Positions 15,766 to 23,634 of a stretch of 53,033 bases of DNA are shown here, piece by piece; the stretch's first letter is position 1, and every line of letters starts with the position of its first letter. The stretch is taken from assembly GCA_030549855.1 (NCBI GenBank), contig JAUQQP010000038.1, positions 1-53,033 of the forward strand. The letters are read 5' to 3'. The notes under the pieces are model-generated. The model was given only the letters and a program-made list of their open reading frames with translations, made no database searches and had not been told where the DNA came from. The position numbers and the translations under genes are program-made. This stretch comes from Cyanobacteriota bacterium SRBZ.bins.94.201705. Its GTDB lineage: Bacteria; Cyanobacteriota; Cyanobacteriia; Cyanobacteriales; Cyanobacteriaceae.

Positions 15766-15997
15766 TATTCTCTTTTTTTCCACTCCTTTTACAGTTTATT
15801 TCCTTCCATCTAGGATATAACAACTAATCATATCAGTGATTTCTAGGCTATTTTGGGGTTTAGGCATTACCGGTATTTTTGCCCTACATCTTTTTACAAA
15901 TTGTTGCTAATCTTTTTTATTTTCAACGCACTTAATCCCCATAGCACACCAATAACCCCTTTTTTCTTACCTCTGAATATTGCTAATTTTTGTATAT

Positions 15998-16119
15998 AAA
16001 AAAATGCCCTGCCCAAATGTCTTGGCAGTCCCTCAGCCTGCCGTCGAAATGTTCCGTCCCTCTCGCCCCCCCATACCCTACTATTATAAGGTAAGAAGAA
16101 CAGGGATTTTGTCAAGGGG
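15998..16119 (-). ncRNA. Small-RNA-like cassette, copy 1 (long form)
   Basis: On the minus strand: TTGACA (16110-16115), TATAAT (16083-16088, spacing 21), a 31-bp longer spacer than the other copies, then the conserved core GGCAGGCTGAGGGACTGCC followed by AAGACATTTGGGCAGGGC and a T-run (15998-16004). The core can fold as GGCAG/CTGCC or as CTGCC/GGCAG next to the T-run. It matches copies at 20168-20256 and 23544-23634. It lies between divergent sixA and livM, pointing toward sixA. The rest of the sixA-livM gap (15784-16236) holds nothing else I recognise. Confidence 0.6.
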
Positions 16120-17621: not shown

Positions 17622-18167
17622 TTAGGATTGGGATTTTTTGGGGGATAGTAACATGATTATGTTTTTGCCTTCTTTTTTAGGTTTTTGTTGGACTTCTGCC
17701 ACGTCTGCCAAGTCTTTTGCGAGTCTTTCTAACAATTCTTCTCCGAGATGGGTATGTTGTGCTTCCCTGCCGCGGAAGTTAATAGTGGCTTTGACTTTAT
17801 CGCCGGCGCCCAAAAAGCGTCTTGCTTGGTTGAGACGCACCTGGTAGTCGTGTTCGTCAATTTTATAACTCATTTTGACTTCTTTGATTTCGGCGGTATG
17901 TTGTTTTTTGCGGATTGCCCTTGCCTTCTTCTCCTGTTCAAACTTGAATTTTCCGTAGTCCATTATCTTACAAACAGGAGGATCGGCATTTTCGCTTACC
18001 AGCACCAAGTCTAATTCTCTTTCTTCCGCCAGACGAATAGCCTCTTGAGTGTCAAAAATCCCCAATTGCTCGCCATTGGTATCAATAAGTCGAACTCTGG
18101 GGTAGCGGATGTTTTCATTGATTTTGGGCAAATCCTTTTGGTTGGTTTTTTTGTTGCTATAAGTCAC
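17622..18167 (-). CDS. infC: Translation initiation factor IF-3
   Basis: 181-aa IF-3, which binds the 30S subunit, prevents premature 50S joining and checks the start codon. The N domain ([22 protein letters not shown] to [16 protein letters not shown], about 16-85) and C domain ([27 protein letters not shown] to the C terminus) are complete. The first possible start is GTG at 18167 without a good ribosome site. infC genes often use a rare start codon for autoregulation, so the real start may differ by some residues. The usual rpmI-rplT partners are absent; instead the gene sits between the two liv permease genes on the opposite strand. Confidence 0.95.
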
Positions 18168-20081: not shown

Positions 20082-20167
20082 GGGGGCTCGGTCTCTCCCT
20101 CTTTACCCCTCCATTTGTCAATTATTCCCGTTATTTATACTTTTATTATTGATATTTATTCCTATTT

Positions 20168-20256
20168 AAAAAATGCACTGCCCAGATGTTTTGGCAGTCC
20201 CTTCGCCTGCCGCCCTCATTGTATTCTAGCAACAGCGCCCCCTATTTGTCAAGGGG
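20168..20256 (-). ncRNA. Small-RNA-like cassette, copy 2
   Basis: On the minus strand: TTGACA (20247-20252), 18-bp spacer, TAGAAT (20223-20228), then about 8 bp later GGCGGCAGGCGAAGGGACTG, CCAAAACATCTGGGCAGTGC and a T-run ending at 20168. The predicted RNA is about 48 nt. It can fold with GGCAG pairing either to the central CTGCC or, alternatively, CTGCC pairing to the distal GGCAG before the T-run. It starts 10 bp downstream of the stop of the 1017-aa gene, on the same strand. Confidence 0.65.
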
Positions 20257-20265
20257 TTAGGGGAT

Positions 20266-23200
20266 TTACCAGCCAGGGCCATCATAGGGGGAGAGAGGTT
20301 CGATGGTAGGATCAGAAATAGGCTGGTCTAGTGTCCAGAGTTGGATGGAGTCGTTGTATTGCACGGAGTTATCGGTGTAGCCGCCGGCGTAAAGTCCCCA
20401 GTGGGCGCGCAAAAGGTGGTGGGAGGGGCCGTCATTGAGTCTGCCTCCCCTAGCCCTAATGATGAGTTGGCCATTCATCCAGACATACATGACTCCTTGT
20501 TGATAGTCTAGATAGGTAGTGAAACGCACCCATTGTCTGAGGGGCATTGTGGGAGAATTGACATATTCCCAGCCGTTGCCCTCCTGATAGCCACCCAAAG
20601 GCGCCTGTAGGTGGTTAAGTCGGACTCGGTTGCGGGAGTCGATGACCAAGACCAAAACCGTGCCCCAGTTGTCCTTGTTGGCGTAGGTAACCAGGTGTTG
20701 CCAGTCGTTGCGTGTTACGTCGGGGTTCCAATCAGCCCACACATAGAATCTGTTGACAAGGGGTTTGGCAGGGACATTCAGATAGTTTTGGGAGACTTCA
20801 TCTACGTGGATAACCGGATAGGGACGATGGTTGGTGGGGGCCGTATTGTAAATCAGCCCCTTGTAAATGCGATCGCCCTCTACCACGGCAACTCCCTCGC
20901 TGGCAGCCTGTTGTGCCGAGATGACCGTCCACATGGAGCTTTTGTCTGGGAGGAGTTGCCCTGTGTCAGAATAGTTTTGGGTGTGGGCATGCCATTGTCC
21001 TATGACATATCCCTCTTCAAACCCGGAATGCCAAATGGGGGTAACTCCTTCCAAGGACAGCTGGTTGACATTGACTTGGAAGACGCCTAGGGTTTGGGGA
21101 GGCAAACTTTGGCCACTATTGCTAAAGACTTGACTAGGTTCCAGGGTTATGGTATACTGTCCGTTATGGGCTGAGGACCATGTAGGTGTGGGAGATTCTA
21201 TCTGATAGGTAGCCCAGACTGAGCCGTCCTGCCTAAGATTATATCCCACCAGTTTTGCCAGTTGATTGAAGTTATTGGGGCCAGTGACCCGAATATCATT
21301 GTCGTCTAGGGTAGCTAGGTTGAGGCCATGGGGGTGGGCGTAGCTGATGGTAAAGCGGTGATTGCTGTCACTGTTGACTAGTTGTCCCTCCTCGTATATT
21401 TCTAGATGGCGGAAGTAACTGTGGGCATTGGCATTGGCATCATCGTCATTGATGAGAATGAGGTATTGGACGTTGCCAGTAAAATAGTCCCCTACTCTGA
21501 TATAATAGGTGCGCCAACCCTCTGTGTATCTCCTGGCATATAGTTTTCCGGAAGTGCCTTCTCGCCAGTATTCATTCCCTGCTATCTGGTAGGCAAAGGC
21601 AACTCCATTGGCTAGACTGTTATCATTGTCAAAGGCGATAGCATGTATCTCGCCCAACTGGCCGCTGTAGAATTCCAGGGTGAGGACTGTATCTGGGGTG
21701 ATAGTACGGGGTAATTCGATTTTCTTCCAGGTGTTGCCGGTGAGGATTAATCCTTTGCCCCCATCTACAATTGTATAACTGCCTGCCAGGTCTTCTCTAG
21801 GGTCATAGCCGGTGATGTCAAAGTCGCTGAAGTTGATTTGTTGTCTGTTATACTTGGCCTTCTCATTGCTAACCACTACATTGTTCAGCTGTACTGTGGC
21901 GGCAGGCGTCCAACTGTCATAAATCTTTACATTTCGGAAGGCACTAAAGGAGTTAATATCCCTAGTATTGCCGTCGTCGTTGATAAAAATGAGAGAATTG
22001 AAACTTCCCCGGTAGTATTTGCCCAAATCGATTGTAATTTTCTGCCATCCCTCCCCCTGATATTCTACAGGAAAATAATTGTCGCGAGTGGCATTACCAA
22101 AGAGATTAAATATTACATCCTGGTTGGTGAGGGAGTTACCGGTGGTAGAAATGCCTATACCCTTTAGCCATCCCCTCTGATTGCTGTTGAATTCAAACTC
22201 GAGAATTGTAGTGCGATTGGGGGTATTGATGACGGTATAATTGAGGGGGATAGCCTTCCAGGTTTTCCCCTTTAGGGTGAGAGTCTTGCCTTCCTCCTCT
22301 ATCAGATGGATTTTGGAAACATCTCTAGTGGCAAAGGAGGTAATATTAGCCTTGTTGAAGTCTATAAAGCTGTTGACATGTACAGTAGCGAGGGTAAAGC
22401 CTGGGATAAAGTTACCCCTGCTGTCGCCAACCTGATTATCTTGTAGGATGAAATGATAGACACCACTGTCATTCAAATCCCATCTCCCATCCTCGGCAGT
22501 GATGGCGTAGGTGACTGTTACACTATGACTGTTGTTATTTTTTATCTCGACTATTTTAGCTAACTGTTCAAATCCATTTTCCCCCCTTACTATAATGTCT
22601 GTGTCATCTATAGTTGACAGGTTTAGGGAAAGGTTGTCTGTATAAGTTACAAAAAAACGATACTCGCCGTCATTAAAGACAGAGACAGGCATTTCAACAG
22701 TTGCCTGAGGAAAAGTGGTATCCTCTTCATAGAGACGAATATTACGGAAATAACTTTCAGAATTGGAATTAGTCCCATCATTATCATTGATTAGTACTAG
22801 AGAGTTAAAGTTTCCCGTATAGTAGTTACCCAGTGGGATAGTGAATTGTTGCCAATCGTCTTGCTGATAGGCGTAGTCATATTTAAAGTTTCCCAATCCA
22901 TTTACGTCTTCACTACCTGTTAATCTAAATTTTAAGTCCCAATGGGAGTATATGTTATCAGTTTCTATTCCTATTCCTTGGATTTCTCCTACTCCTTGAC
23001 TGCGGAATTCAAAACTCAATAGTGTATCCTCAGTTACATTGTATGGGTAATCAATTTTTTTCCAGGCATTTCCGGCAATTTTTATGCCATTGCCTTCTTC
23101 TAGGATTTCATAGTTTGTCTCTCTACCGTCTTCTCCATCTTGATAACTGTAGGGGGTGATGCTTACTTGGTTTAAGTCAATGGCTTGTGGGTATTCAGCA

Positions 23201-23319
23201 ATATAACTACCACTTCTCCCACTTTCTATCCCACTTTCCAGGTTACTGTCATTTTGGAGTATAAACTCTGTTGCTATTATCTGGTTTATGTTACTTCCCA
23301 CGTCTGTGGTTATAATCAT
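20266..23319 (-). CDS. Large modular carbohydrate-binding/polysaccharide-lyase-like protein
   Basis: 1017-aa modular protein. Three copies of a carbohydrate-binding-like beta-sandwich occur at about 50-198, 320-467 and 495-643; each has GxTWKxI, a WxxFTIPLGxYYTG-like strand and LVLINDxD...YFRxxxIYE. Two shorter Ig-like modules occur at about 205-315 and 650-750 (LSLNLSTIDDTDIIV). The C-terminal domain, about 760-1017, is concanavalin-like and resembles PL13/PL20-type lyases (HSGFEEG, RFYVWADWN, YLDYQQGVMYVWMNGQLI). There is no classical signal peptide, so secretion by a type I route or a cell-surface role is inferred. GAGG precedes the ATG. Small-RNA-like cassettes flank the gene on both sides. 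Confidence 0.75.
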   Translation of the reverse strand: MIITTDVGSNINQIIATEFILQNDSNLESGIESGRSGSYIAEYPQAIDLNQVSITPYSYQDGEDGRETNYEILEEGNGIKIAGNAWKKIDYPYNVTEDTLLSFEFRSQGVGEIQGIGIETDNIYSHWDLKFRLTGSEDVNGLGNFKYDYAYQQDDWQQFTIPLGNYYTGNFNSLVLINDNDGTNSNSESYFRNIRLYEEDTTFPQATVEMPVSVFNDGEYRFFVTYTDNLSLNLSTIDDTDIIVRGENGFEQLAKIVEIKNNNSHSVTVTYAITAEDGRWDLNDSGVYHFILQDNQVGDSRGNFIPGFTLATVHVNSFIDFNKANITSFATRDVSKIHLIEEEGKTLTLKGKTWKAIPLNYTVINTPNRTTILEFEFNSNQRGWLKGIGISTTGNSLTNQDVIFNLFGNATRDNYFPVEYQGEGWQKITIDLGKYYRGSFNSLIFINDDGNTRDINSFSAFRNVKIYDSWTPAATVQLNNVVVSNEKAKYNRQQINFSDFDITGYDPREDLAGSYTIVDGGKGLILTGNTWKKIELPRTITPDTVLTLEFYSGQLGEIHAIAFDNDNSLANGVAFAYQIAGNEYWREGTSGKLYARRYTEGWRTYYIRVGDYFTGNVQYLILINDDDANANAHSYFRHLEIYEEGQLVNSDSNHRFTISYAHPHGLNLATLDDNDIRVTGPNNFNQLAKLVGYNLRQDGSVWATYQIESPTPTWSSAHNGQYTITLEPSQVFSNSGQSLPPQTLGVFQVNVNQLSLEGVTPIWHSGFEEGYVIGQWHAHTQNYSDTGQLLPDKSSMWTVISAQQAASEGVAVVEGDRIYKGLIYNTAPTNHRPYPVIHVDEVSQNYLNVPAKPLVNRFYVWADWNPDVTRNDWQHLVTYANKDNWGTVLVLVIDSRNRVRLNHLQAPLGGYQEGNGWEYVNSPTMPLRQWVRFTTYLDYQQGVMYVWMNGQLIIRARGGRLNDGPSHHLLRAHWGLYAGGYTDNSVQYNDSIQLWTLDQPISDPTIEPLSPYDGPGW

Positions 23320-23543
23320 TTTTCCTCATCTTTGTTCTTTTGTTTTTCTTTTTTCTTCTCCTTTATTTCTCCCCTACTTTATTCTCCCTCTATAATTCCC
23401 CTCTGTTGTCCTTTTTTCTACCTAATTTTCTCTTAAAATCTCCTTATCCTCTCAGTATTATCCCTACTCCCTCCCTTCCCCCTTCTTTCTCCTCCTCAGT
23501 ATTTATACTGAATCTTTGGATTTATTGCTTAGTTTTCTCAAAT

Positions 23544-23634
23544 AAAAAATGCGCAGCCCAGATGTCTTGGCAGTCCTTCCGCCTGCCGCCCATTGCACCC
23601 ATCCTATCACGGCCTGCCCCCTTTTGTCAAGGGG
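23544..23634 (-). ncRNA. Small-RNA-like cassette, copy 3
   Basis: On the minus strand: TTGACA (23625-23630), 18-bp spacer, TAGGAT (23601-23606), then about 10 bp later GGCGGCAGGCGGAAGGACTG, CCAAGACATCTGGGCTGCGC and a T-run ending at 23544. The predicted RNA is about 50 nt. It lies 225 bp upstream of, and in the same direction as, the 1017-aa gene, so it may be an autonomous RNA or a leader with a conditional terminator. Confidence 0.65.

Follow-up and report, generated by a model that had tools for sequence, protein, structure and literature searches.

REP elements associated with RAYT transposases occur in many intergenic, hairpin-bearing copies, and convergent pairs are typical of them. Among cyanobacterial small RNAs (sRNAs), Yfr2 is described as a family whose members lie dispersed over several unconserved loci and have promoters of their own (PMC2662882, PMC6778093); the cited accounts give up to nine copies in one genome (PMC6778093) and a 12-nt loop (PMC2662882). 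NsiR1, a cyanobacterial sRNA of ∼60 nt, is likewise reported to be encoded many times over, with one promoter per copy, and in Nostoc to form 12 tandem copies at one locus (PMC9045159). The FopS sRNAs of Bacteroides are described as a paralogous multicopy family bound by the RNA-binding protein RbpB, with 12–15 copies per genome (PMC11697453). Here, we examined a contig of 53,033 nucleotides (the window) from Cyanobacteriota bacterium SRBZ.bins.94.201705, which carries three copies of a short hairpin-bearing element. On the best reading of the sequence data, these copies appear to belong to an old, genus-restricted family of autonomous sRNA genes that is very large and has two subtypes.

Copies in the window

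Both cassettes reported in the initial annotation were found on the minus strand where it had placed them, the corresponding copies in the family counts being 20141–20216 (copy A) and 23517–23592 (copy B). Pattern matching recovered the proposed TTGACA, 18-bp spacer and TAGAAT or TAGGAT at 20223–20252 and 23601–23630, and downstream of the −10 element both copies contain, in the order described, GGGCGGCAGGCG, a purine stretch, ACTGCC, CATCTGGGC and a T-run. A third copy (copy C) could be identified at 15972–16047. The features are as follows:

20223–20252, minus strand: copy A promoter; −35 TTGACA at 20247–20252, 18-bp spacer, −10 TAGAAT at 20223–20228 (pattern match and family-wide promoter count)
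20193–20211, minus strand: copy A hairpin; 5-bp stem GGCAG/CTGCC with a G facing K-A, the lone pair C-G and a loop of four bases (covariation in 111 copies)
20176–20192, minus strand: copy A subtype-1 segment (CAAAACATCTGGGCAGTG region); sequence-conserved, without covariation (profile and pair tests)
20168–20173, minus strand: copy A T-run, presumed RNA 3′ end (sequence)
20148–20165, minus strand: copy A AT-rich palindromic tail (in-register conservation)
23601–23630, minus strand: copy B promoter; −35 TTGACA at 23625–23630, 18-bp spacer, −10 TAGGAT at 23601–23606 (pattern match)
23569–23587, minus strand: copy B hairpin (family covariation)
23552–23568, minus strand: copy B subtype-1 segment (profile)
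23544–23549, minus strand: copy B T-run (sequence and family T-run count)
23524–23541, minus strand: copy B AT-rich palindromic tail (in-register conservation)
16083–16115, minus strand: copy C promoter region; TTGACA at 16110–16115, TATAAT at 16083–16088, then a long leader (sequence)
16024–16042, minus strand: copy C hairpin (sequence match and covariation)
15999–16004, minus strand: copy C T-run (sequence match)
15979–15996, minus strand: copy C AT-rich palindromic tail (sequence match and in-register conservation)

The 21-bp spacing in the copy C promoter is atypical, the alternative being TACCTT at 16 bp. The window contains five exact matches to TTGACA-N16–19-TANNNT, compared with 1.95 expected (4 of 100 shuffles reached five), and three of the five are those of copies A, B and C. 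Copies A and B flank a gene for a 1017-aa protein as originally described: the −35 element of copy A starts 13 bp past the stop codon, and the T-run of copy B ends 224 bp ahead of the start codon. The label 'carbohydrate-active' given to this gene could not be confirmed, because the protein had no match in Pfam, NCBIfam or PDB sequence searches. Since the remaining copies adjoin other genes, the tie between the element and the 1017-aa gene looks incidental.

Size and distribution of the family

A blastn search with copy A as query hit 16 genomic sites at E⩽0.001. A covariance model (R1), built from 32 copies in two genomes, matched 78 sites at E⩽0.001 within the genome's own 2.87 Mb, in agreement with the multicopy claim, and 50 at the same threshold in a sister species, no further genome of the genus having been found. 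PsbA/PsbD-type proteins mark the source as cyanobacterial. The training alignment of R1 (A1) omitted 2 of 34 regular-expression matches, L011:1808 (judged chance) and L026:2837 (judged weak). No convincing match was obtained in 13 other genomes of the family, nor, under stricter filters and among the matches listed, in a further 289 genomes of the order and 385 of the phylum (the three samples overlap). Plasmid and phage records had no blastn match to the element. A degenerate core pattern retrieved 57 single stretches from a genome contig collection that may omit the window's own genome, mostly from unrelated bacteria, and one from viral contigs; these 58 stretches were taken as chance because none scored above 19.2 bits with R1 (E 1.2).

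Rfam, which the initial annotation had suggested as a means of identifying the RNA, pointed to no related family. At gathering thresholds there was no match within the window; at permissive thresholds two copies matched eukaryotic families only, far below the cut-offs of those families, and a search of 11 further loci at E⩽0.1 returned one tRNA only. Among the open-licence PMC papers listed in literature searches, none describes this family in its title or the start of its abstract.

For the counts below, 89 own-genome matches (E⩽1) and 52 sister-species matches (E⩽0.01) were pooled into 141 copies, of which 111 fitted two gap-free subtypes (65 subtype 1 and 46 subtype 2, 43 of the latter being contained in alignment A3); the remaining 30 were excluded ahead of the counts.

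A conserved, covarying hairpin

Family-wide, the conserved features are a sigma70-type promoter (in subtype 1), a 5-bp stem, a lone pair, a G, an A, the T-run and the AT-rich palindromic tail. The 5-bp stem was paired in 323 of 325 cells in subtype 1 and 226 of 230 in subtype 2, with 40 and 15 double-changed cells compared with shuffle means of 13.5 and 1.6, respectively; it should be noted that R1 included stem 1 but not the lone pair 12–17, so the copies were chosen partly on stem 1. Slid controls were 4.7–49.6% paired, compared with 99.2 and 99.5% in register. The strongest covariation of the element, ranking top in both subtypes, is that of the lone Watson–Crick pair 12–17, a standard pair in 108 of 111 copies. 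This pair lies within the supposed loop, and the 'exposed' purine loop of the initial annotation was therefore not upheld. Around it, G11 (108/111) and K18 (109/111) are near-invariant and A19 (111/111) is invariant, and the four-base loop is biased toward G at its first position and G or A at its last. Mismatches and wobbles comprised 18 G-U compared with 3 A-C, an imbalance that puts the fold on the same strand as the promoter. No excess of further pair types over shuffles could be observed in subtype 1 or A1.

Folding of isolated copies did not favour the conserved hairpin in most cases: mean probabilities were only 0.39 and 0.28 for the conserved stem and 0.07 and 0.04 for the lone pair, and folding z-scores of five copies ranged from −1.95 to +0.40. 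At the T-run position, at least four T were present in 80 of 111 copies, the other 31 having no four consecutive T. A second hairpin ahead of the T-run had no covariation support in either subtype (202/260 compared with 203.3, and 220/276 compared with 217.4), so an intrinsic terminator is not established. Fur-family operators are 15-bp palindromes of the 7-1-7 type. The AT-rich tail agreed with a Fur-like palindrome at a mean of 9.0 of 12 positions in register, the consensus having been chosen from the same copies, and the exact palindrome TGANAATNATTNTCA does not occur in the genome.

Promoters, gene context and synteny

A sigma70-type promoter was found in 42 of the 58 subtype-1 copies with testable upstream sequence, compared with 1.0% of shuffles. 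Among subtype-2 copies, a full −35/−10 pair was present in only 12 of 45 (1.5% of shuffles), and much of this subtype has the box TTTACATTTCTTAA at a fixed upstream distance, together with a −10 element. Twenty-five of the 47 genome sites of the box precede a copy, 23 of them at 56–59 nt; a control pattern had eight sites. The box fits the first half-site (KTTACAWW) of HLR1/RpaB promoters and lies near the activating distance of −45 to −66 given for such sites in the cited account (PMC13421787), but the second half-site of KTTACAWW-N2-KTTACAWW is not matched.

On the basis of an ad hoc ORF caller, 86 of 89 own-genome matches lay outside predicted ORFs; the upstream gene was on the same strand in 39 cases and on the opposite strand in 39, and the downstream gene in 29 and 47 of 76 scorable copies, respectively. 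Neighbouring copies no more than 500 bp apart formed 12 convergent, 10 tandem and no divergent pairs, and reading by eye revealed no shared feature in the sequence that separates the tails of the 12 convergent pairs. Two-sided synteny with the sister species was found for 26 pairs (25 distinct partners); an ungapped comparison covered the 21 pairs whose two copies have the same length. The motifs were better kept than the flanks: identity was 84% in the hairpin, 65% in the segment after the stem and 32% in the downstream flank. In the eight pairs with both promoters found, the spacer (54%) and the upstream region (51%) also exceeded the downstream flank. All 21 typed pairs had the same subtype in both species.

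Alternative explanations

The initial annotation had also read the cassettes as a possible terminator/antiterminator switch or leader in which CTGCC picks between two GGCAG partners and so controls the downstream gene. The 3′ GGCAG does occur in copy A, where the downstream pairing even dominates the predicted fold (P 0.98), whereas copy B has GGCTG at this place. Over the 65 subtype-1 copies, covariation is confined to the upstream pairing. The downstream alternative stands at the level of chance (226 of 325 cells paired; the shuffles average 226.5) and has P above 0.5 in seven copies, and the downstream gene is mostly on the opposite strand, as counted above. A switch is thus very improbable and already contradicted at the family level. 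We also consider it unlikely that the family acts chiefly by base pairing, the unpaired segment that follows the stem (in subtype 1, CAARACACTTGGGCWG) pairing with mRNAs and the hairpin only protecting the 5′ end. That segment is conserved in sequence and not as a hairpin partner, and the multicopy FopS and NsiR1 are described as acting by base pairing (PMC11697453, PMC9045159); however, it differs between the subtypes, whereas the hairpin motif and its invariant bases are common to both, and it is less well kept than the hairpin between syntenic copies.

A DNA-level element, either a REP/MITE-like mobile or chromosomal repeat or the target of a DNA-binding protein, with the hairpin acting as single-stranded DNA and the promoter incidental, would agree with the dispersed intergenic copies, their convergent and tandem arrangement, the conserved palindromic tail and also the covariation, which is possible for a single-stranded DNA hairpin. 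Several observations make it distinctly improbable. The Y1 transposase domain (PF01797), expected of a REP/RAYT or IS200/IS605-type element, was found in neither of the two genus genomes (control positive in 5 of 14), plasmid and phage records are free of the element, and copies are retained at syntenic places. Promoters are kept in subtype 1 and the fixed-distance box in subtype 2, so the mobile family without promoter conservation that the initial annotation had set against an RNA does not describe these copies.

Proposed mechanism

The autonomous, multicopy RNA of ∼50 nt originally suggested is favoured by its own promoter, covarying stem, intergenic sites of mixed orientation and syntenic conservation. 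We therefore consider each copy to be probably a self-contained small-RNA gene (probability roughly 0.8), judging from sequence evidence. Each would yield an RNA of ∼45–50 nt, beginning close to the hairpin, which sits where the transcript's 5′ end is expected, and finishing with the T-run. An RNA-binding protein may recognize this hairpin, with its 5 bp, its G facing K-A, its lone pair and its four-base loop; this mechanism, the one we prefer, is tentative, and the protein partner is a guess. The many dispersed copies could supply dosage, titrating or guiding such a protein, with subtype 1 constitutive and subtype 2 controlled by a response regulator. Taken as a whole, sRNA genes combined with a protein-binding hairpin and dosage form an explanation that we somewhat favour. 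It is conceivable, if rather doubtful, that one genus maintains, in a genome of 2.9 Mb, ∼80 or more dispersed sRNA genes, each under selection of its own, with a new hairpin motif binding an RNA-binding protein and two promoter subtypes giving constitutive and light- or redox-responsive doses.

Comparison with known systems

REP elements and the present family share intergenic, hairpin-bearing copies and convergent pairs, but the latter has no Y1 transposase, conserved promoters and syntenic stability. Like Yfr2 as described, it is cyanobacterial, dispersed at several loci and apparently provided with its own promoters; unlike it, the hairpin lacks the reported 12-nt loop, and the Yfr2 model (RF01701, Cyano-1) matches exactly one locus per genome, none of them a copy. 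NsiR1 is also a many-copy cyanobacterial sRNA with a promoter per copy, but its description, 12 tandem copies at one locus compared with ∼80 dispersed ones here, sets it apart. FopS offers a parallel in multicopy paralogous sRNAs, its bound protein RbpB having a supposed counterpart here, and it differs in phylum and in copy number. An RNA family this large can escape Rfam when restricted to one genus. Its covariation defines a compact RNA motif, precise enough for the design of partner pull-downs, and its two subtypes, two kinds of promoter and many syntenic pairs offer a natural experiment in sRNA evolution. As described, the multicopy sRNA families compared here have no more than ∼15 members (12–15 for FopS, 12 for NsiR1 and up to nine for Yfr2); ∼80 members with promoter and hairpin apparently under selection would represent an extreme of RNA gene dosage in bacteria.

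Copies in the window and size of the family

Three copies of the element were located in the window by sequence and pattern match:

Copy A: 20141-20216, minus strand, promoter at 20223-20252
Copy B: 23517-23592, minus strand, promoter at 23601-23630
Copy C: 15972-16047, minus strand

The element consists of TTGACA, 18 bp, TAGAAT or TAGGAT and GGGCGGCAG, followed by a nine-base stretch, CTGCC, a TGGGC-bearing segment, a T-run and an AT-rich tail. The initial annotation had described copies A and B accurately; in copy C the promoter spacing is atypical and the leader longer.

Using copy A as query, blastn found 16 places in its own genome (G000) at E<=0.001 and, across 60 related genomes, matches only in G000 and in the only other genome of the genus found (G001). 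A covariance model (R1), built on an alignment of 32 copies from both genomes (A1), gave 89 matches in G000 at E<=1 (78 at E<=0.001) and 52 in G001 at E<=0.01 (50 at E<=0.001). Matches were confined to these two genomes in an order-level search of 291 genomes and to G000 alone in a phylum-level search of 386, the larger searches having been run with stricter filters and on overlapping genome samples. At the family level (15 genomes, later model R2), two other genomes gave nothing better than E 0.46 and 0.81. Both G000 and G001 encode PsbA/PsbD-type proteins and thus represent cyanobacteria. The copy counts are lower bounds, because the model missed a further G000 copy (C14:135838) that was spotted by eye beside an upstream box. 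It should be noted that two G000 copies at contig ends (C16:93-166 and C19:38442-38515) share their upstream sequence and begin to diverge inside the hairpin; this pair is possibly an assembly mosaic, and the C16 copy should not be relied on in counts. In addition, window 52956 to the end (minus strand) and the end of contig C7 share ∼160 nearly identical bases with one difference seen, and the two contigs may adjoin or carry a repeat.

A conserved hairpin and a lone pair

Hairpin statistics were calculated on gap-free copies, which fall into two subtypes (65 and 46 copies). The stem formed by columns 6-10 and 20-24 had 323 standard pairs out of 325 in subtype 1 and 226 out of 230 in subtype 2, and double-changed cells (40 and 15, respectively) exceeded the shuffle means (13.5 and 1.6). 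In subtype 2, additional pair types were more numerous than in shuffles; this was not so for the 65 subtype 1 copies, nor for A1, where 463 of 500 shuffles reached the observed number. When position pairs were scanned between 45 bases upstream and 95 bases downstream, 12-17 ranked first in both subtypes. This pair is standard in 63/65 and 45/46 copies, being C-G in 44 and U-A in 19 of subtype 1 (n=64), and A-U in 26, U-A in 13, C-G in 4 and G-U in 2 of subtype 2 (n=46). The remaining high scores in subtype 2 chiefly involved promoter and leader columns, which we read as differences in promoter phase. Together with the conservation of G11 (108/111), K18 (109/111) and A19 (111/111), the scan resolves the nine-base 'loop' into G11, a lone pair enclosing four bases, K18 and A19. 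With the lone pair included, pairing reached 99.5% on A1 and 99.2% on A3 (43 subtype 2 copies), and dropped to 4.7-49.6% after a shift of one to three columns. G-U wobbles outnumbered A-C mismatches (18 versus 3, p 0.0015), and the folded strand is therefore that of the promoter.

Several results count against reading the copies as autonomous sRNA genes with this hairpin. In equilibrium folding, the mean probability of the conserved stem was 0.39 in subtype 1 and 0.28 in subtype 2 (>0.5 in 27/65 and 12/46 copies), and that of the lone pair 0.07 and 0.04; folding z-scores of five copies ranged from -1.95 to +0.40; and a T-run of at least four was found in 80 of 111 copies. We suppose that the hairpin would form first while the RNA leaves the polymerase, or would be held by a protein.

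The proposed switch, in which the central CTGCC pairs alternatively with GGCAG on either side, did not hold as a family feature: its downstream partner was paired in 226/325 cells (shuffle mean 226.5). Downstream pairing dominates the predicted fold of copy A (P 0.98) and exceeds P 0.5 in 7/65 copies. A second hairpin before the T-run had no covariation support in subtype 1 (202/260 cells versus 203.3) or subtype 2 (220/276 versus 217.4).

Promoters, upstream box and tail

Subtype 1 carries CAARACACTTGGGCWG 3' of the stem and subtype 2 CAGGG..CCTG. Full promoters were present in 42 of 58 testable subtype 1 copies (1.0% in shuffles) and were rarer in subtype 2 (12/45; 1.5% in shuffles). The box TTTACATTTCTTAA, allowing one mismatch, occurred at 47 genome sites, versus 8 for the reversed control pattern; 25 preceded a copy (23 of these at a distance of 56-59 bases) and 22 lay elsewhere, including the one preceding C14:135838. 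It resembles the first half of HLR1, the RpaB site, whereas the second half is not matched; its position is near the activating distance described for RpaB/HLR1 in excerpts of PMC13421787. The tails of both subtypes agreed with TGANAATNATTNTCA on average at 9.0 of 12 positions, against 2.3 to 5.5 once the pattern was shifted; this shows register rather than identity because the pattern was derived from the same copies. Exact TGANAATNATTNTCA was absent from G000, and a Fur-type operator in the tail is a lead only.

Genomic context and conservation

Only three of 89 G000 matches overlapped a predicted ORF. Based on our home-made ORF caller, upstream neighbours were on the same strand in 39 cases and the opposite in 39, and downstream neighbours in 29 and 47. 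Neighbouring copies within 500 bp were convergent (12) or tandem (10) and never divergent in G000, where some pairs include partial, low-scoring matches; G001 had two convergent pairs. Convergent G000 copies (for example, C13:26629/26806 and C29:13384/13560) often face each other tail to tail at a distance of about 90-140 bp. The 1017-aa protein at 20266-23319 (minus) had no match in Pfam, NCBIfam or PDB sequences, and the plus strand between its gene and copy B (23320-23500) is strongly pyrimidine-rich. infC (translation initiation factor IF-3; 17622-18167, minus) lies between two opposite-strand branched-chain amino-acid permease genes.

Searches of both genomes revealed no Y1 transposase, and plasmid and phage records gave no blastn match to the element, both of which count against a mobile repeat. 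For 26 G000 matches, a G001 partner (25 distinct partners in all) occupied the same place between homologous ORFs, and 25 more had one-sided synteny only, some of it doubtful. Ungapped comparison of 21 equal-length syntenic pairs showed 84% identity in the hairpin, 65% in the segment, 69% in the T-run, 67% in the tail and 32% in the downstream flank. The median identity of flanking ORFs was 88.6% (203 ORFs). In the eight pairs with a promoter found in both, the -35 and -10 were 96% and 81% identical, and spacer, upstream sequence and leader 54%, 51% and 45%; the contrast is therefore weaker there. Subtype was kept in all 21 typed pairs. The syntenic partner ranked first among 52 for 9 of 26 matches and fourth or better for 17 (lowest, 39), and conversion or saturation blurs many pairs. 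Old, individually selected genes would fit these sequence data better than a recent repeat.

Comparison with known RNA families

According to excerpts of the cited papers, the nearest kinds are Yfr2, with up to nine copies (PMC6778093, PMC2662882), NsiR1, with 12 tandem copies (PMC9045159), and FopS, with 12-15 copies (PMC11697453). The present family resembles them in having many copies and in carrying promoters. Identity with Yfr2 was ruled out by the RF01701 model, whose single match in each of G000 and G001 lies away from the copies; NsiR1 and FopS are likened by description, not by sequence. Beside these, the element forms a very large, genus-restricted family of what are probably autonomous sRNA genes, whose transcription and function we infer, with a newly defined hairpin.
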